In this document: positions 4,234 to 23,487 of the stretch, piece after piece
Layout: each line of letters opens with the position of its first letter
Position numbering within the stretch: the first letter of the stretch is position 1
NCBI GenBank assembly: GCA_036004685.1
Contig: DASYRE010000008.1
Coordinates: 1 to 35,817 of the forward strand
DNA length: 35,817 nt
Reading direction: 5' to 3'
Source: Candidatus Polarisedimenticolia bacterium
GTDB lineage: Bacteria; Acidobacteriota; Polarisedimenticolia; Gp22-AA2; AA152
Notes under the pieces: generated by a model
What the model was told of the DNA's origin: nothing
Database searches by the model: none
The model's input: only the letters and a program-made list of their open reading frames with translations
Translations under genes and position numbers: made by a program

Positions 4234-5640
4234 ATGCCCGAAGACCCAGCCGGCCGCATGACGCACGGCGCCTGGCGCAAGCTCCGCGGCCTTCTCGAGG
4301 GGAAATCCGCCGGGTCCGAGCAGAGCCCGATCGGCGGGCCGAAATTCCTGAGAGACAGCGCCACGACGTTCCTGACGGCGGTGCTGGCTCTTGGGATCGG
4401 CACGATCCAGGCGGCCGTCGTCGCCCGCACTCTTCTGCCGGAAGGGAAGGGAGCCCTCACCGCCGCCCTGATTCTGCCGCAACTCCTGGCAATCCTGACG
4501 CCGTTGGGCCTGAACTGGTCGGCGACCTACCATCTTGGCCGCCGGACCTTCGACCGCGAGAGGCTGATGCGATCGGTCCTGACGGCGCTGCTTCTGCTCT
4601 CCGCAGGCGCGATGATCCTCTGCCTGGGGGTGGGTTTCGCATTGCGCGGCGTTCTGCTTCCCGGGGTGCCCCGCTCGGCCTTCCTGCTGGCCGTGCTGCT
4701 CCTGCCGACGCAGGTTTTCCTGCTCTCGCTCGGCGGACTCTTCCGCGGGGAGATGCGAATCCTCGAGGCGAACCGGATGGATCTGGCGCGCAGCGGCCTC
4801 ATGTTCCTCGGGATCCTCGTGGCGATTCGAGTCCTGCGGCTTGGAGTGATCGGAGTAGTCCTCGGGCAGCTGCTGGCCGAGATTCTGGTCATCATCATGG
4901 CATTTCGGCGTCTGCGGGGCGTTCCGGCCCGACCGCTTCTGAACGGCGAAATCCTCAGAGAATTGACTGGATACGGGCTGAAGGTCTACAGTTTTACGAT
5001 CCTTCTTTATTTGAATTACCGCTTCGACCTGTTCATGGTCCGGTACCTGCTGGACCTGAGACAGACCGGCCTCTATGCGACCGCCGTCAGCCTGGCGGAG
5101 ATTCTCTGGATGGTTCCGACTTCGCTGGGATGGGTGCTCTTCCCGAGCATCGCGAGATCGGGCGGCGCGGAGAGGGACCGCTTGACGCTGGCCGTGTGCC
5201 GGAACGCATTCTGGGTGATGCTGGTTCTGTGCGGAGTCCTGGCGCTGAGCCGGAATGCCGTGCTGCGCCTGTTCTTCGGCGAACCGTTCCTGGCGGCGTC
5301 TCCGGCGCTGCTCGCGATCCTTCCCGGAATTCTTGCGATGGCCATCCAGCTGGTGCTCGGATCCGATCTTTCCGGCCGGGGCCATCCGTTGCCGGTGACG
5401 CTGGCGGCCGCTTTGGGCCTCGTGACCAACTTCCTTCTGAACCTGCTCTGGATTCCGCGATACGGGATCGTGGGCGCGTCCCTGGCCTCCTCGGTCTCTT
5501 ACAGCATCATCGCGCTGGTCGTCATCGTCGCCTTCCTGAGGATCTCGGGGGCGAAGGTCCGCGATGCCTTCGTCCTTCGCCGTGAGGATTGGGGCCGGGT
5601 CGCCGGCGTGTTCTCGAAGATGAGGGAGGCGGCCGCTTGA
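4234..5640 (+). CDS. Wzx-type polysaccharide flippase (MATE/MOP superfamily)
   Basis: A 468-residue polytopic protein with about 12-14 hydrophobic segments after a 35-residue polar N-terminus, with the spacing of the polysaccharide transporter family (lipid-linked oligosaccharide flippases of the MOP superfamily). Visible family features include VARTLLPEGKGALTAALILP in the second segment region, a central YSFTILLYLNYRFDLFMV, and a C-terminal LLWIPRYGIVGASLASS. It would move undecaprenyl-diphosphate-linked repeat units from the cytoplasmic to the periplasmic leaflet, supplying the Wzy-like proteins on either side. The ATG is three bases after the carbamoyltransferase stop, with GAGG overlapping the end of that gene, suggesting translational coupling. 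Confidence 0.9.
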   Translation: MPEDPAGRMTHGAWRKLRGLLEGKSAGSEQSPIGGPKFLRDSATTFLTAVLALGIGTIQAAVVARTLLPEGKGALTAALILPQLLAILTPLGLNWSATYHLGRRTFDRERLMRSVLTALLLLSAGAMILCLGVGFALRGVLLPGVPRSAFLLAVLLLPTQVFLLSLGGLFRGEMRILEANRMDLARSGLMFLGILVAIRVLRLGVIGVVLGQLLAEILVIIMAFRRLRGVPARPLLNGEILRELTGYGLKVYSFTILLYLNYRFDLFMVRYLLDLRQTGLYATAVSLAEILWMVPTSLGWVLFPSIARSGGAERDRLTLAVCRNAFWVMLVLCGVLALSRNAVLRLFFGEPFLAASPALLAILPGILAMAIQLVLGSDLSGRGHPLPVTLAAALGLVTNFLLNLLWIPRYGIVGASLASSVSYSIIALVVIVAFLRISGAKVRDAFVLRREDWGRVAGVFSKMREAAA

Positions 5641-5713: not shown

Positions 5714-7660
5714 GTGTGCGGATTAGCGGGAATTCTCTCGTTCCGGGGGGCGCTTCCGGAGCAAACCGATGCGCGATTGCGGGCGTCGGCCGATGCGCTC
5801 CGGCACCGCGGGCCGGACGACCAGGGGTTTTACCGGGAAGGGGAGATCGGTCTGGCATTCCGCCGCCTCTCGATCTTGGACCTCGCCGGGGGCCACCAGC
5901 CCATGTCGAACGAGTCCGGCACGGTGCAGGTGATCTTCAACGGTGAGATCTATAACTATCGCGAAATCACTCGAACCCTCGAGGAACGGGGGCACCGCTT
6001 CCGCACGCGCTCGGACACGGAGGCGATCGTCCACCTGTACGAGGAGGCGGGAGAGGACTTCGTCCATCAGCTGCGCGGGATGTTCGCCATCGCCATCTGG
6101 GATTCCCGGTCTCGCAAGCTGATTCTCGTGCGGGATCGACTCGGCATCAAGCCGCTCTTCTACCGGTCGACGTCTCAGGAGCTCGTGTTCGCCTCCGAAT
6201 TGAAAGGGATCCTCTCGACGCTGCCGCTCTCCGTCCGGAGGCTCGACGAAGAGAGCCTCGCCCGGTACTTCCGCTTCCTGTATCTTCCGGGCGATCGCAG
6301 CATCTTCGCGGGAATCCACAAGCTCCGGCCGGCTCACCTCATGATCTGTCAGGACGGGAAGGTGTCCATCCGCCGTTATTGGAACCTTCCGCCGGTGGAT
6401 CCCGCCCCCGGTTTCGACCGCGCGGAAGCCGTGGAGCGTCTTCGAGCCCTCCTCGAAGAATCGGTCCGGCTCCGCCTGATCAGCGACGTGCCGCTGGGAG
6501 CGTTCCTCAGCGGGGGAATCGATTCGAGCTGCGTCGTCGCGCTGATGAAGAAAGTCTCGAAGGATCCGGTCAAGACCTTCACGATCGGCTTCGAGGAGGA
6601 GGAATTCAACGAGATTCCGATTGCGCGGAAGGTGGCGAAGGCGCTCGGCACCGAGCACTGCGATCTCGTCGTCCGCCCCGAGGCCATCGGGTTGGTGGAG
6701 AAGGTCATTTCCGCCTTTGACGAGCCCTTTGGCGATCCCTCCGCCATTCCGACTTATCTCGTCTCCCGGCTCGCTCGCGCCCAGGTCACGGTGGCGCTCT
6801 CGGGGGACGGAGGCGACGAGCTGTTCGCCGGCTACAACCGCTATCAGAGCCTGACGCGCTTGGATTCCTTGCGCCGTCTGCCGCGCGGGATGAGGCGTGC
6901 GGGAAGCTTCCTGCTGGGGAAGGTCGGGGCGGCGAGCTTCTCGGCGACCAGGCTGTCCGGGGCGCTGCGGCGCAGTCTGGACGTCTTTCCGCAGGACTAC
7001 ATCGATTCGGTGAATTTCCTTTTCGATCGGCGGGCGGCCGCCGCGGTGACGCCGGCCTGGAGGGAAGCGGCGGCTAAAGTCGGATGGGAAGTTTCCGTCG
7101 ACGGCTGGTCCGACCCGGTTGACGGGGCGCAGCGGATCGATCTCCACAATTATCTTCCGGAGGACATTCTCGCCAAAGTGGACCGCATGAGCATGGCCTG
7201 TAGTCTCGAGGGGAGGGTCCCGCTGCTGGATCACCGCGTCGTGGAGTTCGTCGCCTGCCTTCCTCCCGCATGGAAGCGCGAGAGCCGGCCGAAGTCTCTG
7301 CTTCTGGAGGCGGCGGGCCACGATCTTCCCCACGAAACCTGGAACCGACCCAAGAGAGGATTCGGGATTCCGCTCTCCCACTGGTTCCGGAACGAGCTGC
7401 GCGATTATCTGAAGGATCTCTTCCTGGGAGAGACGGCGCGCCGGCGAGGATTCTGGGATCGTCGAGGGATGGAGTCGCTCATTTCCGCTCACCAACAGGG
7501 AGCTTGGGACTTCTCGGAGCAGCTCTGGGCTTTCCTGACTCTCGAGCTCTGGCACCGGAAGTACCTCGATCCGGCGAATCCCTATCCCGGATTCTCCGAC
7601 TCGCTTCCTCCGGTGCTCGACGCCGATGCCGGGCAGGTCCCGATCCGGAGCGTGCCGTAA
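5714..7660 (+). CDS. asnB: asparagine-synthase-like glutamine amidotransferase
   Basis: The GTG at 5714 gives MCGLAGILSF, whose Cys2 becomes the N-terminal nucleophile after methionine removal; the earlier GTG at 5708 would bury it. The class II glutaminase domain (about 1-200) shows RHRGPDDQGFY and FNGEIYNYREI. The synthetase domain carries the PP-loop FLSGGIDSSCVVALM near residue 265 and ALSGDGGDELFAGYNRY near 363. At 648 residues it matches the long AsnB proteins of extracellular polysaccharide and exosortase loci. Those are thought to amidate a carboxyl group, possibly of a uronic acid or amino-acid substituent, with ammonia from glutamine; classical asparagine synthesis cannot be excluded. 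Its stop overlaps the next start by one base (TAATG). Confidence 0.92.
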   Translation: MCGLAGILSFRGALPEQTDARLRASADALRHRGPDDQGFYREGEIGLAFRRLSILDLAGGHQPMSNESGTVQVIFNGEIYNYREITRTLEERGHRFRTRSDTEAIVHLYEEAGEDFVHQLRGMFAIAIWDSRSRKLILVRDRLGIKPLFYRSTSQELVFASELKGILSTLPLSVRRLDEESLARYFRFLYLPGDRSIFAGIHKLRPAHLMICQDGKVSIRRYWNLPPVDPAPGFDRAEAVERLRALLEESVRLRLISDVPLGAFLSGGIDSSCVVALMKKVSKDPVKTFTIGFEEEEFNEIPIARKVAKALGTEHCDLVVRPEAIGLVEKVISAFDEPFGDPSAIPTYLVSRLARAQVTVALSGDGGDELFAGYNRYQSLTRLDSLRRLPRGMRRAGSFLLGKVGAASFSATRLSGALRRSLDVFPQDYIDSVNFLFDRRAAAAVTPAWREAAAKVGWEVSVDGWSDPVDGAQRIDLHNYLPEDILAKVDRMSMACSLEGRVPLLDHRVVEFVACLPPAWKRESRPKSLLLEAAGHDLPHETWNRPKRGFGIPLSHWFRNELRDYLKDLFLGETARRRGFWDRRGMESLISAHQQGAWDFSEQLWAFLTLELWHRKYLDPANPYPGFSDSLPPVLDADAGQVPIRSVP

Positions 7661-9045
7661 TGAGCTCCCTGAAAAGCCTTTCTCTGGCCGATTCTCTTTC
7701 GTATCCTTCGAAGGTCCAGATCCTGGGCCTTGCCGCGGTGGGCACCTTGGTGGCCGGGTTCCTCTATCTGGGATTCCCCGTCACCAACCTTCCTTGGCTC
7801 ATCGTCGGCGGGATCCTGGCTCTCTTGACCTTGCGATCCCCTGTGATCGGACTGACCTTCGTCCTGGCCTCCCAATATGCGCCGTTCGCCGTCGGCGGTC
7901 TCACCGTCGTCCAAATCGCGGGCCCTTTGGTGGCCCTGATAGCGCTCCTCTGGTACGCGGCCAACAAGCGCGGGATCGTCCTCGGGAACACGACCCTCCC
8001 CATGATTTTCCTGATATTCCACCTGCTCTACTCTTTGAATTTCACCAAGAATGCGGCGCTGACCTGGTCTTCCTTGCGCAAACTCTCCTTCAACATCATT
8101 TTCTGCGTGCTGATTGTGAACGTGGTGAACTCCTACCGGAAGCTCCGCCTGCCTCTGTGGATTCTCACAGGCATGGGAGCCCTGAATTCGCTGGCCGCTT
8201 TCTACCAGGTAGCCGTGGGGAAGACCATCGACAATCGGGCCAGGGGACTCCTGGAAAACGAGAACCAATTCGGCGAAGTCGCCGCGATGACCTTCTTCGT
8301 CCCGTTCTACTTTTTCCTGAACGGTACGCGGCGATGGGAAAAGGCTCTCGGTTTTGGTCTGAGTGTCCTGCTCATGGGAGGAATGATCCTTTCGATCTCC
8401 CGGGGTGCGATTATCGCGTTTGTCGGCGGCATCTGCATGGTCGTGATTCGCGAAAGGCGATCCTGGCGCCGAATCCTGTTCTTCGCTGTCCTGGGCGCCT
8501 GTGCCTATCCCTTGCTGCCCCAGCATTTCTCCCACCGCTTCGAGAAAATCGGGAGCGAACTGAGGGGAACGGTCGTCCTGTCGCAGCGCCACGGGCTCTC
8601 GGTCCGCGGCTACTACAACAAGGCGGGTCTCAAGATATGGAAGGCCAATCCCGTTCTGGGCGTGGGGCTCGGAAACTACGGCTATTACTATATCCAGCCG
8701 GAGTTCAACCCGGGAATGCCGGGAGTCCACACCCTTCCTCCTCACAATCTCTACGTCCAGGCCCTGGCGGAAACCGGAACACTCGGTTTCCTCTTGCTTT
8801 GCTGGTGGATTCTGCAGGCTGGCTACAATTACATGAAAGCGGAGCAGCGAGCCCCGCCTCCCGAGGACCTCACGTATCTCCGTGCCGCCGAAACCCTGAC
8901 GTTGCTGATGCTGATTGCAGCCTTCGCTTCCGGAAATCTGCTGTTCACCCACACTGGGGTGGTGCTGTCCCTGAGCTACGTTTGCCTGAGGGCCTCCGAG
9001 AACGACCCGGCGGCGACTCCGGCTCCGACGAGCTCGTCGTCGTAG
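7660..9045 (+). CDS. Wzy/O-antigen ligase-like membrane protein
   Basis: A 461-residue polytopic membrane protein starting at the ATG within TAATG, so translation is coupled to the amidotransferase. About ten to twelve hydrophobic segments surround a long periplasmic loop. Signature parts are RGLLENENQFGEVAAMTFF near residue 193, a hydrophobic ILSISRGAIIAFVGG, and NPVLGVGLGNYGYYYIQPEF followed by LPPHNLYVQALAETGTLGFL near 365, the Wzy_C pattern. It is likely the second polymerase or ligase acting on lipid-linked glycan in the periplasm. Having this one and the gene at 1-1086 in one locus could reflect one polymerase plus one ligase, but roles cannot be assigned from sequence. Confidence 0.88.
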   Translation: MSSLKSLSLADSLSYPSKVQILGLAAVGTLVAGFLYLGFPVTNLPWLIVGGILALLTLRSPVIGLTFVLASQYAPFAVGGLTVVQIAGPLVALIALLWYAANKRGIVLGNTTLPMIFLIFHLLYSLNFTKNAALTWSSLRKLSFNIIFCVLIVNVVNSYRKLRLPLWILTGMGALNSLAAFYQVAVGKTIDNRARGLLENENQFGEVAAMTFFVPFYFFLNGTRRWEKALGFGLSVLLMGGMILSISRGAIIAFVGGICMVVIRERRSWRRILFFAVLGACAYPLLPQHFSHRFEKIGSELRGTVVLSQRHGLSVRGYYNKAGLKIWKANPVLGVGLGNYGYYYIQPEFNPGMPGVHTLPPHNLYVQALAETGTLGFLLLCWWILQAGYNYMKAEQRAPPPEDLTYLRAAETLTLLMLIAAFASGNLLFTHTGVVLSLSYVCLRASENDPAATPAPTSSSS

Positions 9046-9073
9046 GACGCCGCAAGACGAGGACCAGAATTCG

Positions 9074-10528
9074 ATGGGAACCTGGCAGGAAGCCATCTAT
9101 CGGCGCGCCCCGATTCCTTTGCAGAACACCCTTCTGACTCTTCACGGATGGCGGCTGCGCCGCGCCCGCTTCGGCGAGGGATACCGTCGATTAAGGCGGG
9201 AGTTCGACGCCCTGGAGGCCGCTTCGCGACCGCAGCAGAAGGCGTATCAGGAAGAACGGCTCGCCGCGTTGATACGGCATTGTTACGAGAACGTCCCCTA
9301 TTACCGTCAAGTGATGGACGAGCGGAAGCTGCGTCCCGGCGATGTCCGGTCGATCGAGGATCTCGCGAAGCTCCCCATTCTCGAAAAGGAGGACTTGCGC
9401 CGCAACTTCGAGGCGCTGGTCTCGCGCGTCGCGAACCCCCGGCGCTTGAGACGGGCTCACACCAGCGGCACGACGGGCTCGCCGCTGGAATGTTACTGGG
9501 ATGATTCGGTGGATTGCGCGACCAACGCGGCGCTCTGGTCGCACCGATCCTGGGCTGGTTTCAGCTTTGGCCGCCCCTACGCCGCCCTCCTCGGACGGAT
9601 AATCGTCCCCGACCGGCAGCACGCGCCGCCTTTCTGGCGCGCCAACCGGGCCTGGAACCAGCTGTTTCTTTCCTCCTTTCATCTCGACGAGCGCACGGTG
9701 GATTCCTACCTCGAAGCCATGCAGTCCTTCGGGACGGAGGCCCTCGACGCCTATCCATCCACCGCGTACTTGCTCGCCTGTCACCTCCGATCCCGCGGCA
9801 GGACGTTGCCGTTGAAGTGCGTCTTCACCTCGGCGGAGACCCTCCTGCCGATCCAGCGAGAGGTCATCCAGGAACGCTTCGTCTGCCCGGTCTACGATTA
9901 CCTGGGAGAGGCGGAGCGGGTTCTTTTCGCCGGAGAATGTCCGTCCGGCGAGGGGATGCATCTGTTCAGCGGATATGGAATCGCGGAGATCGCCGACGAC
10001 CGCGGCGCGCCGCGTCCTGAGGGAGAGGCGGGTCACCTGATCGTGACGGGGCTGCACAACTACGCCATGCCGCTGATTCGCTACCGGCTGGGCGATGTCA
10101 GCGCGGTGCGGGGCGAGCGTTGCGGATGCGGGCGCACGCTTCCTCTCATGGATCCCGTGACCACCAAGGCCGAGGACATCGTGGTCACGCCCGAAGGTCG
10201 GCACGTCAGCGCTTCGACGCTCACGCATCCTTTCAAGCCCATGAAGAACGTCCTGGCCTCCCAGATCGTCCAGGAGACTCTGCACTCGCTGATCATCCGC
10301 ATCGTGCGTCGCCCTGCTTACACGGACGACGACACGAGAATCCTGGTGTCGGAGTTCCGCAAGCGCGTCGGCGATACGATGAAGATCGAAGTCGTTTTCG
10401 TGGACTCCATCCCGCGGGGACCCCGGGGAAAGCTGCGATGGGTCATCTCGAAAGTCCCGCTTCGCTTCGGCGTCCAGACGAGCAAGAACCTCTTCGCCGA
10501 GTCGGACGCCGAGCAGAAAGCCGGATGA
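9074..10528 (+). CDS. PaaK/CapK-like AMP-forming adenylate ligase
   Basis: A 484-residue member of the ANL superfamily related to phenylacetate-CoA ligase PaaK and capsule protein CapK. The adenylate-binding P-loop HTSGTTGSPLECY is at about residues 131-143. Further family features are the acceptor-site region DAYPSTAYLLACHLRSRG (about 227-244), HLFSGYGIAEIADDRG and the hinge-like AEDIVVTPEGRHVSAS near 370. Relatives in polysaccharide loci are presumed to activate an organic or amino acid as an acyl adenylate for attachment to glycan, but the substrate is unknown. It lies 28 bases after the ligase-like gene and directly before a FemAB-like transferase, a plausible acceptor of the activated group. 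A GAGGA at 9058-9062 is the only visible ribosome binding site and is rather distant. Confidence 0.87.
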   Translation: MGTWQEAIYRRAPIPLQNTLLTLHGWRLRRARFGEGYRRLRREFDALEAASRPQQKAYQEERLAALIRHCYENVPYYRQVMDERKLRPGDVRSIEDLAKLPILEKEDLRRNFEALVSRVANPRRLRRAHTSGTTGSPLECYWDDSVDCATNAALWSHRSWAGFSFGRPYAALLGRIIVPDRQHAPPFWRANRAWNQLFLSSFHLDERTVDSYLEAMQSFGTEALDAYPSTAYLLACHLRSRGRTLPLKCVFTSAETLLPIQREVIQERFVCPVYDYLGEAERVLFAGECPSGEGMHLFSGYGIAEIADDRGAPRPEGEAGHLIVTGLHNYAMPLIRYRLGDVSAVRGERCGCGRTLPLMDPVTTKAEDIVVTPEGRHVSASTLTHPFKPMKNVLASQIVQETLHSLIIRIVRRPAYTDDDTRILVSEFRKRVGDTMKIEVVFVDSIPRGPRGKLRWVISKVPLRFGVQTSKNLFAESDAEQKAG

Positions 10529-10535
10529 GGCTGCC

Positions 10536-11594
10536 GTGATCGAGTTCGAGGAGGTGAAGCAGGTGTCCGCCGCGACCTGGGATCAGTGGCTCGAGGCCAC
10601 CGGTCGGGCGCGTTTCTATCATTCTTCCGGCTGGCTGAGATTTCTGGACGCCACGCAGCCGGGCCGGACCCTGCGGGCCCGCATTCTGGAGAACGGCCGT
10701 CCCATCGGTTACTTCGCCGGCAGGCTCCTCTCCAAATACGGACTGAGGATCCTGGGCAGCCCGCTGCACGGATGGACCACCCATTACATGGGCCCCGTCC
10801 TGAATGCCGACTGCGCCTTCTCCGCGGAGGCGTTTCTCGCCATGCACCGGTGGGTCTTCGGGGAGCTTGGATGCGCCCATTTCGAGCTGTTGACGCCCGA
10901 CCTGCCGCCCGGCACCGCCAAGGATCTCTCCTATGAAGATCAGGGCTTTCAGAGCTTCCTGCTCGACCTGAGGCCCGGCGAAACTGATCTGTTCGGGCGC
11001 TTCAACAAAGGGTGCAAATGGTCCATCCACAAAGCCCAGCGGGAAGGCGTGAGGGTCGAAGAGGCCCGCGATGAAGGGTTCGTGGACGATTATTACCGGC
11101 AACTCGAGGACGTCTTCGCCAAACAGCGGCTCGTCCCGACGTACGCGCGCGCGCGCGTCGAGGCGCTCTGGCGATGCGCGCCGCGGGATCGGCTCCTCTG
11201 TCTGAGAGCGTTGCGCGACGATGGGGCATGCATCGCGACGGCCATCGTCACCTATGACCGGCGGTGCGCCTACCTCTGGGGCGCTGCGAGCTGGCGCCAG
11301 GAGCAGAAACGATGTCCGAACGAGCTCCTTCAGTGGGAGGCGATGAAGCGGCTCAAACAGCTGGGCGTCCCGGCCTACGATTTCGGCGGGGGAGGAGAGT
11401 ACAAGGCCAAGTACCGGGGGACGCGCATTCACGTGCCCTGGTACTCGCGAAGCCGCTACCGGTTTCTCGCCCGGCTGCGGGACGTCTATCGGGACGCCTT
11501 CTACGGCCGGCAGCGCCTGAAGGGGTGGCTCGGCGGGCTCAAGACGGGACAGGATCGCCGGGAGATCACGGCGGGGGCGGTCGGTGGATCGTAG
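10536..11594 (+). CDS. FemAB-like GNAT-fold transferase
   Basis: A 352-residue protein of the FemAB/Acetyltransf_6 type. The central FNKGCKWSIHKAQREGVRV matches the RKAEREG-type motif of this group, and the C-terminal half has AIVTYDRRCAYLWGAAS and VPAYDFGGGGEYKAKYRGTR, the conserved end of the second GNAT fold. FemABX proteins transfer amino acids from aminoacyl-tRNA to peptidoglycan precursors; homologues in exosortase-type polysaccharide loci have unproven acceptors. Its GTG start lies 7 bases after the adenylate ligase stop, and its end overlaps the methyltransferase by 11 bases. An aminoacyl or acyl decoration of the glycan is the best contextual guess. Confidence 0.82.
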   Translation: MIEFEEVKQVSAATWDQWLEATGRARFYHSSGWLRFLDATQPGRTLRARILENGRPIGYFAGRLLSKYGLRILGSPLHGWTTHYMGPVLNADCAFSAEAFLAMHRWVFGELGCAHFELLTPDLPPGTAKDLSYEDQGFQSFLLDLRPGETDLFGRFNKGCKWSIHKAQREGVRVEEARDEGFVDDYYRQLEDVFAKQRLVPTYARARVEALWRCAPRDRLLCLRALRDDGACIATAIVTYDRRCAYLWGAASWRQEQKRCPNELLQWEAMKRLKQLGVPAYDFGGGGEYKAKYRGTRIHVPWYSRSRYRFLARLRDVYRDAFYGRQRLKGWLGGLKTGQDRREITAGAVGGS

Positions 11595-15617: not shown

Positions 15618-16577
15618 ATGAGAGTCCTGATCACGGGAGGGGCCGGCTTCATCGGCTCGCACCTGGCCGAAGCCTATCTCAGCCGCGGGGACGAGGTCTG
15701 GGTGCTCGACGATCTCTCGACCGGCGGCATCCAGAACATCGAGCATCTGAAAGGGCAACCCGGGTTCCATTACGTCGTGGAAACGGTGATGAACATCCCG
15801 GTTCTCGCGGAATGCATCGACCGCTGCGACCAGGTCCTGCACATGGCGGCGGCGGTCGGGGTCCGGCTCATCGTGGAGAGCCCGGTCAACACGATCGAAA
15901 CGAACATCAAAGGCACCGAGAACGTGTTGATGCTGGCGAACAAGAAGAAGAAAAAGGTCCTGATCGCCTCCACGTCCGAGGTCTATGGCAAGAGCACGAA
16001 GGTGCCTTTCAGCGAGGACGACGACCTGGTGCTGGGTCCGACCATCAAAGGACGGTGGAGCTACGCATGCTCCAAGGCGATCGACGAATTCCTGGCCATC
16101 GCCTACTGGAAGGAGAAGCGGCACCCGGTCGTAATCTGCCGTCTCTTCAACACGGTCGGCCCTCGTCAGACGGGACGATACGGCATGGTGATCCCGACGT
16201 TCGTGCGGCAGGCCCTCTCCGGCCAGCCGATCACGGTGTTTGGAGACGGCACCCAGTCCCGCAGCTTCACCTACGTCTCCGACGTCGTCGGCGCGATCGT
16301 CAAGCTGATGGATTCCGACAAGACGACGGGACAGGTCTTCAACATCGGCAACGGCAGGGAAATCACCATCATGGAGCTGGCCGTCCTCGTCAAGGAGCTG
16401 ACGAACAGCTCCTCGGAGATTCTTCTCATCCCCTACGATCGGGCCTACGAAGAGGGCTTCGAGGACATGCCCCGGCGGGTGCCGGATATCTCCAAGATTC
16501 GCAAGACGATCGGCTACGAGCCCACCCTGAACATCAAGGAAATCCTCAAAAAAGTCATTGAATACGAGCGTGGATAG
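15618..16577 (+). CDS. NAD-dependent nucleotide-sugar epimerase/dehydratase (extended SDR)
   Basis: A 319-residue extended short-chain dehydrogenase. The NAD-binding [10 protein letters not shown] is at residues 7-16, the catalytic Ser/Thr region IASTSEVYG near 115, and the YxxxK pair in WSYACSKAIDEF near 150. VFGDGTQSRSFTYVSDVV and VFNIGNGREITIMEL mark the sugar-nucleotide half. It resembles UDP-glucose epimerases, dTDP-glucose dehydratases and UDP-glucuronate decarboxylases; the exact reaction is not decidable by eye, although it clearly differs from the xylose-type enzyme at 23980-24942. A strong AAGGAGA (15604-15610) sits 7 bases before the ATG. It would supply a sugar donor to the preceding glycosyltransferases. 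Confidence 0.88.
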   Translation: MRVLITGGAGFIGSHLAEAYLSRGDEVWVLDDLSTGGIQNIEHLKGQPGFHYVVETVMNIPVLAECIDRCDQVLHMAAAVGVRLIVESPVNTIETNIKGTENVLMLANKKKKKVLIASTSEVYGKSTKVPFSEDDDLVLGPTIKGRWSYACSKAIDEFLAIAYWKEKRHPVVICRLFNTVGPRQTGRYGMVIPTFVRQALSGQPITVFGDGTQSRSFTYVSDVVGAIVKLMDSDKTTGQVFNIGNGREITIMELAVLVKELTNSSSEILLIPYDRAYEEGFEDMPRRVPDISKIRKTIGYEPTLNIKEILKKVIEYERG

Positions 16578-16669: not shown

Positions 16670-18445
16670 ATGAGCGTCATCGGCGCGTTGTTTGTCGCGT
16701 TCCTGCTCTGCGTCGCGGCGACTCCCGTCGTCATCCACCTGGCCCGCCGTTTCGGGTTCGTCTCCGAGCCCAAGGCCGATCGCTGGCATTCCCGCCCGAC
16801 GCCGCTGCTCGGCGGGACGGTGATCTACGCCGGAGTCACGGCCTCGGTCCTGCTGTTTGGGACGCTGAGCCGCGAGATGATCGGGGTTCTGGTCGGCGGA
16901 TCCCTGATCTTCCTTCTCGGCCTGACGGACGACCTGCTCCAAATCAAGCCGTCCACAAAGTTCCTCGGGGAAATCCTCGCGTCCTGCGTCGTGCTTTACG
17001 CCGGCTTGGGGCTGGATCTGATCCCGAATCCCTTCCTGAACCTGTTCTTGACCCTTCTCTGGTTGGTGGCGATCACCAACGCCTTCAACCTCCTCGACAA
17101 CATGGACGGACTCGCCGTCGGCGTGGCGGCCATCTCCTCCTTGACGACCTTCGTGTTCTCCCTGGTCCAGGGGCTGCCGGAGATCTCGGTGCTCTCGATG
17201 GCCGTCCTCGGAGCCAGCCTCGGATTTCTGCTGTTCAATTTCAATCCGGCCAAGATCTTCATGGGAGACTGCGGGAGCCTTTTCCTCGGATTCACCCTGG
17301 CCTGTACGACCATTCTGGGATCGTGGGAGCAGGCCTCCAACCTGTTCGCAATCCTGGCAATCCCAAGCCTTGCCTTGGGGGTTCCCATCTTCGATACCCT
17401 GCTGGTCACCACGTCCCGGATTCTCTCAGGGCGCAGCGTGGCCGTCGGCGGCCGGGATCACACGTCGCACCGCCTCGTGGCTCTCGGGATGTCCGAGCGG
17501 AAGGCGGTCCTGACCCTCTACGCCTTATGCGTCTTTCTGGGCTCTATCGCGATCTTCAGCCTGCTCTTCAATTTCGTCATCTCCGGCCTCATCACCGTGT
17601 TCTCGATCGTGCTGCTGGCCCTTTTCGGACTTTACCTCGGCCAGGAAAGGGTCTACCGGTACGAGTCGGGTTCCAACGGACGCGAAGCTTCCCGCGTCTA
17701 CAGCAGCTTCATCCGTCACAAGACCAGGATTCTCGAGGTGGCGATCGACACCTGCCTGATATCGCTTGCGCTGGTCTCCGCCTACGCGCTGCGGTTCGAC
17801 GGCACGATTCCACCCGCCCTCTACGCTCAGATTGCCGCGACCCTGCCCGCTCTTCTCTCCATCAAGCTCCTTATCTTTCACTACTTCGGACTGTACCGAA
17901 TCGTCTGGTCCTACATGGACATCGCCGACCTCGGAATCATCGCCAAGGCGGTCCTCACCGGCTCCGTCCTTTCGGTGCTCACCCTGCTGGTCTTGACGCG
18001 CTTTGAAGGATACTCACGGGTCGTCTTCGTTCTGGACGCTTTCCTGCTTCTCGTTCTGGTGACCGGGAGCCGCATGCTGTTCCGGTTCTGGCGCGACTAT
18101 TTCGCGGGACTGCCACGGCTCGGAACGCGCCTGATCATCGTCGGGGCCGGCGATGCGGGCGTGATGATCCTGCGGGAAATCCGCAACAATCCGGACCTCG
18201 CCTATCAGCCGATTGGGTTCATCGACGACGACGCCGGGAAATCGGGGAAGCGCATCCATGGACTTCCCGTCCTCGGCGGACGGGAAAAGCTCAGCGACCT
18301 CGCCTCGAAGAACCGCGTCGATGAGATCCTGATCGCCATCCCGTCGCTTTCGGAAATGGAGCAGAAGCGGCTTGTCTTGCTTTGCGAGCAGACGGGAAAG
18401 CGCTTCCGGGTCATGCAGAGTCTGGGAAAGTCGGTTCTCGGGTGA
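16670..18445 (+). CDS. WecA/TagO-type phosphoglycosyltransferase fused to CapD/WbaP-like TM-Rossmann module
   Basis: A 591-residue protein with two parts. Residues 1 to about 330 are a polytopic phosphoglycosyltransferase: GLTDDLLQIKPSTKFLGE carries the DDxxD-region aspartates, NAFNLLDNMDGLAVG is the NxxNxxDGxDG motif, KIFMGDCGSLFLG follows and GGRDHTSHRLVALG is the histidine loop. Such enzymes transfer a sugar phosphate from UDP-HexNAc to undecaprenyl phosphate, starting glycan assembly. Residues about 345-591 contain four more membrane helices (YALRFDG loop, YFGLYRIVWSYM) and a Rossmann domain beginning LIIVGAGDAGVMILREI near 488, as in the N-terminal halves of CapD/FlaA1 and WbaP. The catalytic epimerase or PglC domain that normally follows is absent. 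The fusion may let a nucleotide ligand control initiation, which is inference. Confidence 0.88.
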   Translation: MSVIGALFVAFLLCVAATPVVIHLARRFGFVSEPKADRWHSRPTPLLGGTVIYAGVTASVLLFGTLSREMIGVLVGGSLIFLLGLTDDLLQIKPSTKFLGEILASCVVLYAGLGLDLIPNPFLNLFLTLLWLVAITNAFNLLDNMDGLAVGVAAISSLTTFVFSLVQGLPEISVLSMAVLGASLGFLLFNFNPAKIFMGDCGSLFLGFTLACTTILGSWEQASNLFAILAIPSLALGVPIFDTLLVTTSRILSGRSVAVGGRDHTSHRLVALGMSERKAVLTLYALCVFLGSIAIFSLLFNFVISGLITVFSIVLLALFGLYLGQERVYRYESGSNGREASRVYSSFIRHKTRILEVAIDTCLISLALVSAYALRFDGTIPPALYAQIAATLPALLSIKLLIFHYFGLYRIVWSYMDIADLGIIAKAVLTGSVLSVLTLLVLTRFEGYSRVVFVLDAFLLLVLVTGSRMLFRFWRDYFAGLPRLGTRLIIVGAGDAGVMILREIRNNPDLAYQPIGFIDDDAGKSGKRIHGLPVLGGREKLSDLASKNRVDEILIAIPSLSEMEQKRLVLLCEQTGKRFRVMQSLGKSVLG

Positions 18446-18531
18446 GCGCAGGCCGACGTCGTGGAGCCGCCCCCGCGACGGCGGGCACCGGCCAAGGCCT
18501 TATTGGGAAAGGGTTTCCGAGGCGTCGCGAC

Positions 18532-18560
18532 TTGACAGCAAGGCCCGCGACGGGTAACAT
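18532..18560 (+). promoter_or_regulatory. near-consensus sigma70 promoter before the barrel gene
   Basis: TTGACA (18532-18537), 17 bases, then TAACAT (18555-18560): a near-consensus promoter in the gap after the fusion gene. Transcription would start near 18567. It conflicts with use of the overlapping TTG at 18532 as the start codon of the barrel gene. The AGAGAGGA at 18572-18579 lies just downstream. Confidence 0.6.
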
Positions 18561-20007
18561 ACCGGCTTCCCAGAGAGGAACCCTTCGGACTCACCGGCGG
18601 TTTCCGGCGAGGCTTTCTTTTCAAGGGATCTGCTTCCTGCTCGTCCTTCTCGTCGCGCCCTGCGTGGCCTTCGCGCAGGGACAGGGGAACGAGGAAGAGC
18701 TCCTGCCCATTCAGATCGGGAGGTTTCTCCTGTACCCTTCGATCGATTTGATCTATGAGCACGAGACCAACGTTCGAAGAACGAATGAGGACGATCCTCT
18801 TTTCGCGCCGGTCTCAAGCAGCGTCCGGAACATCCGTCCCGGCTTTCGCTTCGAGATTCCGTTCGAAAGGGGCTCCGGGACCGTGGATTACCAGGCGCAA
18901 TTTCAGGATTACACCGACGCGGAGCTCGGGAACGCGAACGGGGTGAGCCAAGCTCTGGATGCCCACTTCCAGATCCGGCTCACTCCGGTCCTGAAAATGA
19001 AGGCCGCTCACAAACTGGTCCGCGGAGTCAGCCAGCTTCCCGAGGTCGATCCGGGCGGAGAGCTCCGCTTCGGGACGCGCCCCTTCGTGGTCAGCGCAAC
19101 CGCCGCCGTTTTTTCCGCCGAGTTCACCCCGGTTCAGAGCCTCGAGCTCGGGGCGGCTCGCAATACGACGACCTTCAGCGGCGGCTCATCGAGCGATTTT
19201 CTTTATGACGTGGAATCCAAGACGTTGTCTTCTCGATACGTCATCACCAGCAGCCCTGAGAACCAGTATTACCTCGCGTTCAACGTGCAGCGGACGCAGC
19301 AGAACCGGGGAGTCTTCTCGGCTCTCCAGCCCACTGATTTCCAGCGGCGCTATGCCGGCGTCGGCCTGCGGCGCCTGATCGCGCCGGATCTCACCAGCGA
19401 GCTGTGGGTCGCCTACGAGAGGACCCGCTTCACCGGGGACATCCGAGGGGTTCCCTTTCACGGAGTCTCGCTGGAGGGTGAGCTGATCAGCCAGGTCACG
19501 GTCACCTCCCAGGCGCGCCTCAAGCTTCGGCGGGGACCTCTTCAGTCCTTCTTCAACGTCAACGCGTACTACCTGAACGAGATGATTCAGCTCGCCTTCG
19601 AGCAGAAGCTCGGCTTGAAACTCGCGGCGCGGTTCCAGGGAGGCTACCAGCGCAACGGCTACCCCGAAGCCATCCGGGTCGCGGCCGTCACTCCCGCGGA
19701 GCAGGCTCTCGACAATGATGGGGACGGACTGGTCGACGAGTATGAATTCCTTGTCCCCAGCGAGGGAGTGAAGCGGAAGGACACGGTTCGAAACCAATCC
19801 TTCGAGCTCTTGTACGACTTCATGCGGGGCTTGCAGCTCGCGCTCGGCGTCCACCGGGATTCGGCGCGCTCCAACATCCGCGCCGTCGGCTGCAAGAATA
19901 CCGCCGTGGGACTCACCAATTGCCCTTCAACCGACCAGATCGTCTACGATCTCTTTGATTACGACAATACGGGCGTCACCGCCTCGCTCACGTTGGGATG
20001 GAAATGA
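18532..20007 (+). CDS. outer-membrane beta-barrel protein of the polysaccharide export locus
   Basis: About 490 residues if the only in-frame canonical codon, TTG at 18532, is used. A signal peptide is clear: basic RRFPARLSFQG, hydrophobic ICFLLVLLVAPCVAFA, and cleavage before QGQG. The mature part alternates polar and hydrophobic residues in many amphipathic strands and ends TASLTLGWK, as barrel proteins do. It resembles the putative porin / PEP-CTERM-associated outer-membrane proteins found in exopolysaccharide loci, which may form or assist the outer-membrane exit. An EF-hand-like loop is encoded at 19711-19746. The true start is uncertain because no ATG, GTG or TTG occurs between the promoter's expected start site and the signal sequence. 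It overlaps the Wza-like gene by ten bases. Confidence 0.8.
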   Translation: MTARPATGNIPASQRGTLRTHRRFPARLSFQGICFLLVLLVAPCVAFAQGQGNEEELLPIQIGRFLLYPSIDLIYEHETNVRRTNEDDPLFAPVSSSVRNIRPGFRFEIPFERGSGTVDYQAQFQDYTDAELGNANGVSQALDAHFQIRLTPVLKMKAAHKLVRGVSQLPEVDPGGELRFGTRPFVVSATAAVFSAEFTPVQSLELGAARNTTTFSGGSSSDFLYDVESKTLSSRYVITSSPENQYYLAFNVQRTQQNRGVFSALQPTDFQRRYAGVGLRRLIAPDLTSELWVAYERTRFTGDIRGVPFHGVSLEGELISQVTVTSQARLKLRRGPLQSFFNVNAYYLNEMIQLAFEQKLGLKLAARFQGGYQRNGYPEAIRVAAVTPAEQALDNDGDGLVDEYEFLVPSEGVKRKDTVRNQSFELLYDFMRGLQLALGVHRDSARSNIRAVGCKNTAVGLTNCPSTDQIVYDLFDYDNTGVTASLTLGWK

Positions 20008-21248
20008 GAAAAACGCCGGAACGACAGGCCACCGGATGGAAGGCGGAGCGATCCGCCATCCTCTTGAGCTGCCTGATGGCCGTCGCGGTTCCGTGGGACA
20101 CGGGCGTCCCGGCCGCCGAGGCGATTCGGGCGAGAGATCTGTCCGTGCGGCGCGGCGCGGCCGATTTGATCCAGCTCTCCTTGAAGACCACCGGTCCGGT
20201 TCCCAGCTCCCGTTGCGAGTTTCGGCGGGAGAATGGCCTGGAGCGGCTCGTTCTGGAGCTTCCGGGAGTCGAATCGGGATTGAAGCCCAGCTACGAATTC
20301 GCCGAGCTCATGACGGGGTCCATCCGGGTCACGACCGTCTCGACGGGCGCCGACCCGGGTCTTCGGGTGGAGATTCCGGTGCAGGGGCTGTCGCTGCGGG
20401 GATGGGAGACCAGCCGGGAGGGCATTGAGGTATCGCTTTCAAGATCCCCGGCCCTCGGCGCGAGCGTGCCGGCACCCTCCGGCCCCGTGGCCGCCGGAGG
20501 CTACCGGCTGGGCCCCGGAGACCGCATCGAGATGGCGGTTTATGGGCATGACGACATGAAGCAGACGCTCCAAGTTCTTTCGGACGGCAGCCTCGTTCTC
20601 CCGCTGGCGGGCGTGATCCCGGTCTCCGGCAAGACGCTGGAGGAGGTTCGCCAGGATCTCGAGAAGCGGCTGAAGGACTACCTGGTCGACCCGCAAGTCA
20701 GTCTGGACATCAAGGAATACCAAAGCCAGCCGGTGAACGTCGTGGGAGAGGTCGAGAAGCCCGGCCAGTACTTCCTGAAGGGCCCCACGACTCTCGTGGA
20801 CATCATCGCCTTGGCCGGGTGGATGAGCAAGGAGGCGGGAAGCGACGTCATCATCACTCGCCACGAGAGCGTTCCCGGTAAAGCCGGCACGATCCGCCAG
20901 ATCGTCATCAAGAAGGAGAACCTCCTGGGCGGCGGGATCGAGTACAACCCTACCATCCAGGCCGGGGACGTCGTGACGGTCGGTCCTCGTCAGTATTTTT
21001 ACATCCGCGGAGAGGTCACCAAGCCCGGGCAGCTCGTTCTCGAGGACCACCCAACGGTGATGAAGGCGATCAGCCTGGCGCTCGGCTTCACCCCCTACGC
21101 CCGGAAGGGCGGGATCCATATCCTCCGTACCGTCAATGGGGTCCAGACGCGGGTCGACGTCGACCTGAAAGCCATCGAGGAGCGAAAGCAGCAGGACATC
21201 CCGCTGCTTCCCGACGACGTCATCGTCATCCCCCGGCGTCGGATATGA
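19998..21248 (+). CDS. Wza-like polysaccharide export protein with N-terminal AMIN-like domain
   Basis: A 416-residue periplasmic or outer-membrane export protein. After a signal-like hydrophobic segment (about 20-38, ending AAEA), residues 45-150 resemble an AMIN domain: LIQLSLKTTGPVPSSRCEF, LERLVLELPGV and GLRVEIPVQGLSLRGWE follow the beta-sandwich pattern seen in PilQ and AmiC. The polysaccharide export domain starts at YRLGPGDRIEMAVYGHDDM (about 169) and continues with SDGSLVLPLAGVIPVSG. Two SLBB-type regions follow, VNVVGEVEKPGQYFLKGPTTL and FYIRGEVTKPGQLVLEDHP. No lipobox cysteine is visible, unlike E. coli Wza. A second possible start is the ATG at 20004, which overlaps the upstream stop. 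It probably forms the trans-periplasmic exit with the kinase and barrel. Confidence 0.88.
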   Translation: MEMRKTPERQATGWKAERSAILLSCLMAVAVPWDTGVPAAEAIRARDLSVRRGAADLIQLSLKTTGPVPSSRCEFRRENGLERLVLELPGVESGLKPSYEFAELMTGSIRVTTVSTGADPGLRVEIPVQGLSLRGWETSREGIEVSLSRSPALGASVPAPSGPVAAGGYRLGPGDRIEMAVYGHDDMKQTLQVLSDGSLVLPLAGVIPVSGKTLEEVRQDLEKRLKDYLVDPQVSLDIKEYQSQPVNVVGEVEKPGQYFLKGPTTLVDIIALAGWMSKEAGSDVIITRHESVPGKAGTIRQIVIKKENLLGGGIEYNPTIQAGDVVTVGPRQYFYIRGEVTKPGQLVLEDHPTVMKAISLALGFTPYARKGGIHILRTVNGVQTRVDVDLKAIEERKQQDIPLLPDDVIVIPRRRI

Positions 21249-21342: not shown

Positions 21343-23487
21343 ATGGAAGCACCTGTCCGACCTGTTTCGGCTGAGAAGAAGGAGATCCATCTCCGCGATT
21401 ACTGGGCCACGATACGACGCTGGCGGTGGACTGTCATCGCTGCCTTCGTAATCGTTTTCACCCTGGTGGCCCTGTTCACTTTCCTCCAGCCGCCCGTCTA
21501 CCGGGCCAGCGCGAAAATCGAGATTCAGCCCTCCACGCGCCGGGTCGCCCCGGTCGCCGACGTCTCCGAGCTCGGCAGCACGGGCTACGGCTGGTTCTCC
21601 GAGGACCGCTACTACAACACGCAGTTCGAGGTCATCAAGAGCCGCGCCGTCGCGGAGAAGGTTTTCGACCGTCTCAACCTGTGGAGCGATCCGCGGTTCA
21701 AGGGGCTCAAGGATCCCATCGACGCGTTCAAGAGCTCGGTCATCGTCGAGCCGGTGGAATTGACCGGCATCGTGGTGATCTCCCTGGAGGGCAACGATCC
21801 CGAAAAGACCGCTCTCTGGGTGAATACTCTTGCCGACGTCTACGTCGAGCGCAACATGGACATGGCCCTGAAGGCCACCGACCGCGCCATGAAATCCCTT
21901 CTCCAGCAGATCGAGCCGCTCCGGGGAAAGCTCGTCAAGAGCCAGGAAGAGAGTTTTCACGTCGCCGAGAAGCAGAAGATTTTCGTTCCCGAGGATCAGC
22001 AAAAGATGATGGTCGGGACGCTCACCAGCCTCCAGAACGATCTCACCGAGACGCAGATCGGAATTGCCAAGCAGGAGGCAGTGATACGACGAATCGAGGA
22101 GGTCGGCCGGGAAGGAGGTTCCTACCTCACCATTCCCGAGATCGCCAAGGATCCGATCATCGAGGGTCTCTACAAGGATCGCATCGCCTTGGAACAAGAG
22201 ATCCAGAAGCTTCTGAGCATCTTCAAAGAGAAGCACGTCACGGTCGTCGAGAAAGAAGCCGAGCTGGCCCGGCTCGACCAGCGCATCGCCGCGGAATGCG
22301 ATCGGATCGTGGCGCGCATCAAGACCGAATACGCCATCCGCAACGATCATGAGCGGAAGGTCCTGGCCCAGATCGAAAACGCCAAGAGCGAATCGCTCGA
22401 CATGACGCAGAGGGCCTCGACGTACGAGCTGGCCCGCGGTGACGCCGCGGAGACCCGCAAGATCTACGATTTGATCAGCAGCCGCTTGAAGGAGATCAAC
22501 CTCAGCTCCCAGCTCCTGAACAACAACATCCGGGTCTTGGACAATTCCCAGGTGCCGCTGGCCCCCGTCCGTCCGCGCAAGGCACTGAACCTGGTGATCG
22601 GCGCGCTCAGCGGACTTCTGCTCGGGGTCGGCCTCGCGTTCTTCCTGGAGTATCTCGACAACACGGTACGGACGTCGGAGGATGTCGAGCAGTATTTGAA
22701 GCTTCACATCCTGTCGATCATTCCGAAAATGACGGACGAGAGCAGCTACGCGGTCCGGGAGTCGCTGCAGACCCTGCGGACCAGCCTGCTGTTCTCCCGA
22801 AAGAGCCGCAGCAAGAACCTCGTCCTGTTCACGAGCGCCGGGCCCCAGGAGGGGAAGAGCACAACTCTCGTCGCCCTGGCGAAAACCATGGCCGCGTCCG
22901 GGGAGCGCGTCGCCGTGCTCGACTGCGATCTGCGCCGCCCCACGATCCACGTCCACCTCGACCTCGACAAGCGCCACGGAATGACGAATTTCATCCTCGC
23001 GCCCGAAACCGAAGGATGGCACAACTACTTGAAGAACTCGAAGATTCCCAATCTCTACGCCATGACGTCCGGACCGCTTCCTCCCAACCCGCCCGACATC
23101 TTCGGAAACGACCGCTTCACGGCGATGCTGACCGAGCTCAAGAACGATTTCGACTGGGTTTTCATCGACTCTCCGCCGGTCGCCTCCCTGACCGACTCGA
23201 TCCTCCTCGCCTCCATGACCGACATGGTCGCGATCGTGATCCGGCACAACCAGACCGACAAGGAGCTCGTGCGACGCTGCGTGGCAAACGTCCGGAACGT
23301 CAACGCCAACGTGATCGGCGCGGTCCTTAATCACGTGGATCTCGAGCGCTCGAGCTACCGCGATTACTACTACGCCGGCTATTACTACTACGGGGAGGGG
23401 AGAGGCTCGAAGAGCAAGGGAAGCCAGGTAAGATCCGCTTCCGGGAAGGGCGCCGACGTGCCCCTGGAGGAAAGGGCGGCTCGCTGA
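21343..23487 (+). CDS. Wzz/Wzc-type chain-length regulator and BY-kinase
   Basis: A 714-residue polysaccharide co-polymerase fused to a bacterial tyrosine kinase, the single-polypeptide form usual in Gram-negative bacteria. The N-terminal Wzz domain has a membrane helix (about 33-52) and VYRASAKIEI. A long coiled-coil region (about 180-400) and the GNVR-like VLDNSQVPLAPVRPRKALNL lead to a second helix near 420. The kinase has Walker A GPQEGKST (about 500-507), Walker A' AVLDCDLRRPTIH (about 524) and Walker B VFIDSPPV (about 605). The C-terminal tyrosine cluster, eight Tyr within twelve residues near 672-683, is the autophosphorylation tail. It sets chain length and works with the Wza-like exporter. 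A terminator follows at 23582. Confidence 0.95.
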   Translation: MEAPVRPVSAEKKEIHLRDYWATIRRWRWTVIAAFVIVFTLVALFTFLQPPVYRASAKIEIQPSTRRVAPVADVSELGSTGYGWFSEDRYYNTQFEVIKSRAVAEKVFDRLNLWSDPRFKGLKDPIDAFKSSVIVEPVELTGIVVISLEGNDPEKTALWVNTLADVYVERNMDMALKATDRAMKSLLQQIEPLRGKLVKSQEESFHVAEKQKIFVPEDQQKMMVGTLTSLQNDLTETQIGIAKQEAVIRRIEEVGREGGSYLTIPEIAKDPIIEGLYKDRIALEQEIQKLLSIFKEKHVTVVEKEAELARLDQRIAAECDRIVARIKTEYAIRNDHERKVLAQIENAKSESLDMTQRASTYELARGDAAETRKIYDLISSRLKEINLSSQLLNNNIRVLDNSQVPLAPVRPRKALNLVIGALSGLLLGVGLAFFLEYLDNTVRTSEDVEQYLKLHILSIIPKMTDESSYAVRESLQTLRTSLLFSRKSRSKNLVLFTSAGPQEGKSTTLVALAKTMAASGERVAVLDCDLRRPTIHVHLDLDKRHGMTNFILAPETEGWHNYLKNSKIPNLYAMTSGPLPPNPPDIFGNDRFTAMLTELKNDFDWVFIDSPPVASLTDSILLASMTDMVAIVIRHNQTDKELVRRCVANVRNVNANVIGAVLNHVDLERSSYRDYYYAGYYYYGEGRGSKSKGSQVRSASGKGADVPLEERAAR

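Follow-up and report, generated by a model that had tools for sequence, protein, structure and literature searches.

Polytopic phosphoglycosyltransferases (polyPGTs) transfer sugar-1-phosphate from a UDP-sugar to polyprenyl phosphate and release UMP. They have been tabulated as "PGT only" enzymes, that is, as enzymes that lack additional domains (PMC10942596). The window analysed here, a stretch of 35,817 nucleotides, contains a gene in which such a transferase runs on into a CapD/WbaP-type membrane-Rossmann part, and it raises the questions of whether the two halves make up one genuine protein, where the second half came from, and what it might do for the first.

Architecture of the fused protein

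The gene is a single open reading frame that runs from ATG to TGA and encodes 591 amino acids with no internal stop. Its parts, in window coordinates, are as follows.

16670-18445, + strand: fused gene, polytopic phosphoglycosyltransferase plus four-helix bundle plus Rossmann domain (open reading frame, Pfam, AlphaFold2, 73-row full-length alignment)
16670-17644, + strand: MraY/WecA-fold catalytic half, residues 1-325, 11 transmembrane helices (PF00953, MraY match, loop charges)
16928-16933, + strand: invariant aspartate pair D87 D88, in the same place as the WecA LDD (73-row alignment)
17078-17110, + strand: NAFNLLDNMDG motif, residues 137-147, replacing the canonical NxxNxxDGxDG (alignment)
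17447-17473, + strand: GGRDHTSHR motif, residues 260-268, standing for the WecA DRxHIHHR (alignment)
17678-18106, + strand: four-helix membrane bundle, residues 337-479 (AlphaFold2 helices 337-375, 382-405, 419-443 and 450-479)
18119-18421, + strand: Rossmann domain (PF13727), residues 484-584 (Pfam, AlphaFold2)
18143-18160, + strand: GAGDAG nucleotide-binding loop, residues 492-497 (108 fusions)
18224-18232, + strand: D519 D520 D521, after the second Rossmann strand (108 fusions)

An earlier note had read this frame as two parts meeting at about residue 345, with both of the module's usual partner domains gone, and that description was borne out. Pfam placed PF00953 at residues 71-217 (E 2e-35; 122.5 bits against a curated cut-off of 27) and PF13727 at residues 429-575 (E 9e-18, above the curated cut-off). 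Neither PF02397 (PglC-like) nor PF02719 (dehydratase) was among the matches to the 591-residue product, and the C-terminus of the whole fusion family lies at about the same position. AlphaFold2, run on a 73-sequence alignment, gave folds for both halves (mean pLDDT 88, pTM 0.84 for the whole protein) with a low-confidence linker at residues 332-337, near the proposed boundary. A frame-shifted dehydratase hidden downstream was ruled out: the next open reading frame, 18382-20007, encodes a beta-barrel protein. The fusion of a WecA-type enzyme with a CapD-type module is thus confirmed as real.

The N-terminal half is a polytopic transferase by its profile score, its MraY fold (Z 35, rmsd 1.9 over residues 1-300 of the model) and its conserved aspartate and histidine motifs. 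D87 D88, D143/D146, G199 D200 and H264/H267 are invariant in the 73-row alignment, as are N137 and F139-G147 (73/73 rows). The fusion has in common with WecA, TagO and MraY the fold, the DD, NxxNxxD and GDxGS motifs and the layout of the cytosolic loops, but it differs from them in its added C-terminal module and in two motifs: the main fusion type carries LLDNMDG and GG[RK]DHxSHR where WecA has DGLDG-type and HIHH motifs, so that its histidine motif reads DHxSHR rather than HxHH. Lysine and arginine are concentrated in the odd-numbered loops of this half, as are the catalytic motifs. The charge pattern and the count of 11 + 4 helices suggest that the catalytic loops and the Rossmann domain lie together on the cytosolic side of the membrane.

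The C-terminal half, modelled alone, had Salmonella enterica WbaP (8t53) as its top Foldseek match (E 2e-6), and in the AlphaFold2 model WbaP aligns over fusion residues 348-584. Superposition of the two domains together gave a high rmsd of about 10, which we read as the bundle and the Rossmann domain being set at a different angle in the model. The Rossmann part alone matched 3nkl with Z about 17 (16.6 in the full-length model) and Rex repressors with Z about 14. A membrane bundle followed by a PF13727 Rossmann domain is the composition of the CapD/PglF-type module, and the nucleotide-binding signature is intact: among 108 fusions G492, A493 and G497 are conserved in 100% and G494 in 99%, with D519, D520 and D521 at 99, 98 and 88%.

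Two known families carry this module. The CapD/PglF/FlaA1-type membrane UDP-sugar dehydratases (PF13727 + PF02719) have the bundle, the Rossmann domain, GAGxxG and DDD in common with the fusion; in those enzymes the module is N-terminal to the SDR domain, whereas in the fusion it is C-terminal to a transferase and the dehydratase is absent. The WbaP/WcaJ-type large monotopic PGTs (PF13727 + PF02397) have the module fold in common with it and, like it, pair the module with a UMP-releasing initiating transferase, but their catalytic domain is unrelated, the domain order is opposite and the module sequence is more distant. WbaP also runs on into a beta-hairpin where the fusion stops. Because the protein terminates directly after the last Rossmann strand, the dimerising hairpin of WbaP appears, from length and predicted secondary structure, to be missing.

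Distribution, integrity and selection

Nearly all of the 80 best-matching loci in public contigs of other genomes covered both halves. From these we took 73 usable full-length open reading frames of 586-678 amino acids, measured after their starts had been trimmed to the family, with a common C-terminal end point. The nearest relatives belong to the same family and share 75-76% identity along the entire protein. Titles of related loci named Omnitrophota, Nitrospirota, Nitrospinota, Tectomicrobia, Deltaproteobacteria/Desulfobacterales, Chloroflexota, Acidobacteria, Oligoflexia and Abditibacteriaceae, and the same domain order recurs in about ten phyla. Within the window's own phylum a fusion match at E <= 1e-100 was found in 41 of 297 sampled genomes, spread over 14 families; 40 of these matches cover both halves. 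That phylum is probably Acidobacteriota, since the modules of L067, a locus titled Acidobacteria, and of L167, from a genome labelled as being of the window's phylum, are identical. The fusion also occurred in 9 of the 201 genomes of a Chloroflexota draw. The survey across phyla that the earlier note called for therefore returned the same order in many genomes.

These dozens of independent single-frame copies leave a negligible chance that an assembly or frameshift artefact joined two genes, the error by which the earlier note's reading could have fallen. The one observation in its favour is the remaining match in the window's phylum, where, in a close relative (G001), contig ends interrupt the fused gene at about residue 373. 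Both ends hold complementary pieces of one gene (L143 and L144), so the interruption is likely an assembly break and not a split gene. Among computable pairs, dN/dS was alike in the two halves at about 0.03-0.2, many pairs being saturated at silent sites; N-half and C-half are under similar purifying selection.

Ancestry of the module and a second fusion type

To place the module we compared 109 fusion, 19 CapD-type and 9 Lg-PGT modules, for which partner domains were Pfam-confirmed in four CapD and four Lg-PGT proteins. All trees were quick trees with SH-aLRT support only. In the module tree fusion and CapD modules were grouped at 93 with the Lg-PGTs outside, and CapD/PglF/FlaA1 modules were nearest to those of the fusion in most trees. 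The deep order of the three groups shifts with sampling, so that closer kinship with CapD/PglF-type dehydratase modules than with WbaP is likely rather than proven. The nucleotide signature agrees with this kinship: GAGxxG and DD are present in 98-100% of the 108 fusions and likewise in CapD, whereas the nine Lg-PGTs sampled show them eroded. The earlier label of a "CapD/WbaP-type" module accordingly holds as to the relationship and is refined towards the CapD/PglF side.

A second, rarer fusion type joins a canonical WecA-type transferase, with DGLDG and H-[IF]-HH motifs, to the same four-helix/Rossmann module, again with no dehydratase. It was found at three loci.

L173:3140-5239, - strand: second fusion type, Tectomicrobia genome
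L205:1369-3570, - strand: second fusion type, genome of the window's phylum
L206:1249-3483, - strand: second fusion type, genome of the window's phylum

We also considered triple fusions that retain a dehydratase and rejected them: the long open frames behind the idea, such as the 927-residue frame at L173, are the second type plus upstream read-through and contain no dehydratase. The N-halves of the second type form a group of their own (support 89), whereas their C-halves, three long-branched rows in quick trees, nest inside the main-type modules (group support 99). From this discordance it appears that the module, or the catalytic half ahead of it, has been exchanged between transferases, in one direction or the other. 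Its reuse on a canonical WecA-type enzyme lends support to the earlier note's suggestion that the module moves from one initiating transferase to another. For the nucleotide-sensing or scaffold role that the note raised as a possibility, what is seen is the retained nucleotide-binding signature.

The Chloroflexota draw also contained polyPGTs that lack the module but share the unusual DNMDG and DHxSHR motifs (L187-L202); they neighbour the fusion clade with support 81, the fusion clade itself having 99. Since these unfused relatives share the catalytic motifs, the module is probably dispensable for catalysis. As for how the fusion came about, a Pseudomonas aeruginosa plasmid carries a CapD gene directly after a polyPGT gene, and the fusion may plausibly have arisen from such a pair, the dehydratase domain being lost afterwards. 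An SDR upstream of the P. aeruginosa polyPGT was examined as a relative of the SDR in the window and showed no meaningful BLAST similarity to it; the precedent is therefore limited to the polyPGT-CapD order.

The existence of that possible source order would also fit a C-half that is a functionless leftover of fusion with a truncated CapD gene. A vestige would hardly keep a similar length and invariant motifs over about ten phyla, a dN/dS as low as that of the catalytic half, and a place on another transferase, and we reject this very improbable reading of the C-half on the purifying selection.

Gene neighbourhood and possible roles of the module

The fusion gene sits in an exopolysaccharide (EPS) cluster with a Wzx-like flippase, Wzy_C, glycosyltransferases, export, and chain-length/kinase proteins, of which the following are referred to here.

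16-1086, + strand: O-antigen ligase/polymerase-like Wzy_C (cluster context)
4234-5640, + strand: flippase-like Polysacc_synt, Wzx type (cluster context)
15618-16577, + strand: extended SDR of the NDP-sugar epimerase/dehydratase/decarboxylase type, immediately upstream of the fusion (PF01370/PF16363)
18445-20007, + strand: beta-barrel protein (BBP2_2) of the EPS cluster, start uncertain, open frame from 18382 (Pfam)
19998-21248, + strand: polysaccharide export protein, Poly_export/SLBB (domain search)
21343-23487, + strand: chain-length determinant/tyrosine autokinase (domain search)

The cluster also includes a 503-residue open reading frame at 7626-9137 that matches nothing in Pfam and, at 9074-11594, a PaaK-like CoA ligase-type frame together with a FemAB-like acetyltransferase. 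This last stretch gave weak XrtA/PEP-CTERM-type matches, and no exosortase was recognised among the EPS-cluster genes scanned.

We propose that the initiating transferase half would start an exported polysaccharide on the cytosolic face of the membrane, that the CapD-type module on the same face would bind a nucleotide or UDP-sugar, and that it would steady or regulate the transferase through dimerisation or feedback, by analogy with the WbaP domain. A nucleotide-binding module of this regulatory or dimerising kind is the reading we favour, at about even confidence, because of the precedent set by WbaP: the isolated WbaP domain gains stability from UMP, UDP and UTP, it carries most of the dimer interface, and the enzyme is inhibited by UMP with an IC50 of 4.1 uM (PMC10942596). 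Every PGT makes UMP, and a one-size-fits-all feedback has been proposed on that ground (PMC10942596). A response regulator activates EpsZ, a WbaP-related enzyme without the hairpin (PMC12802240). For the fusion module, ligand binding, dimerisation and regulation are all predicted by this comparison, and the UMP data for WbaP might not transfer to it, since it is probably more akin to the module of CapD than to that of WbaP.

The intact dinucleotide-type signature and the similarity to Rex would be compatible with NAD(H) as well, and the Rossmann domain could then bind NAD(P)(H) to sense redox state, or to oxidise or reduce a sugar linked to a nucleotide or a lipid. Rex proteins are NADH sensors, and 3nkl bears the name UDP-D-quinovosamine 4-dehydrogenase. 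That name may have been inherited from annotation, however, and the WbaP domain is reported to respond to uridine nucleotides; we regard NAD(P)(H) as an improbable ligand.

The SDR gene raises a different possibility, that the module serves mainly as a docking scaffold: it would bring the initiating enzyme together with an SDR that makes the UDP-sugar, or with later glycosyltransferases, for local handover of the donor. In the window the SDR ends 92 bp before the fusion, and its nearest solved relative is a UDP-glucuronate decarboxylase (E 4e-61). Of 110 fusion loci with enough flank, 58 have a member of the same SDR subfamily next to the fusion, as against 0 of 32 unfused polyPGT loci; these counts include some duplicate loci and are uncorrected for relatedness. 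The SDR lies on the same strand, usually upstream and often within or overlapping by a few bases; in four Chloroflexota loci it is on the opposite side of the fusion. Per genome, it was present in 39 of 41 with the fusion as against 62 of 256 others, likewise uncorrected for relatedness. CapD, moreover, carries an SDR covalently on the same module. Against docking, about half of the fusions have no adjoining SDR, and the subfamily is widespread without the fusion. Among 20 genomes that lack the fusion, one, of the window's phylum, has the SDR beside a polyPGT, and mostly it is far from any polyPGT; on a Streptomyces plasmid it lies beside an unfused one. The subfamily is thus not exclusive to the fusion, and we consider docking an unlikely main role, though a better candidate than NAD(P)(H) binding. 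The subfamily is itself highly conserved, and in plasmids of Streptomyces and Legionella its neighbour is a nucleotide sugar dehydrogenase.

Returning to a regulatory or dimerising module, we put forward tentatively, as somewhat short of an even chance, a broader idea: the CapD/WbaP-type membrane-Rossmann module may be an all-purpose control device that can move among the enzymes of committed steps in glycan assembly. Monotopic initiating transferases, UDP-sugar dehydratases and no fewer than two lineages of polytopic initiating transferases would all have received it, and these enzymes, unrelated but drawing on one uridine-nucleotide pool, would share one regulator.

We found no description of the combined architecture in the open-access literature, and we call it a new variant because the published table has polytopic PGTs as "PGT only"; Pfam or InterPro may already catalogue it. 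In the light of the fusion, the published description of polytopic PGTs as single-domain enzymes needs qualification. A third, chemically unrelated, UMP-releasing partner gives a new handle on the puzzling PF13727 module of WbaP-like and PglF-like enzymes, and the fusions, together with their unfused relatives with the same motifs, constitute natural controls for distinguishing feedback by UMP or UDP-sugar from dimerisation and from docking.
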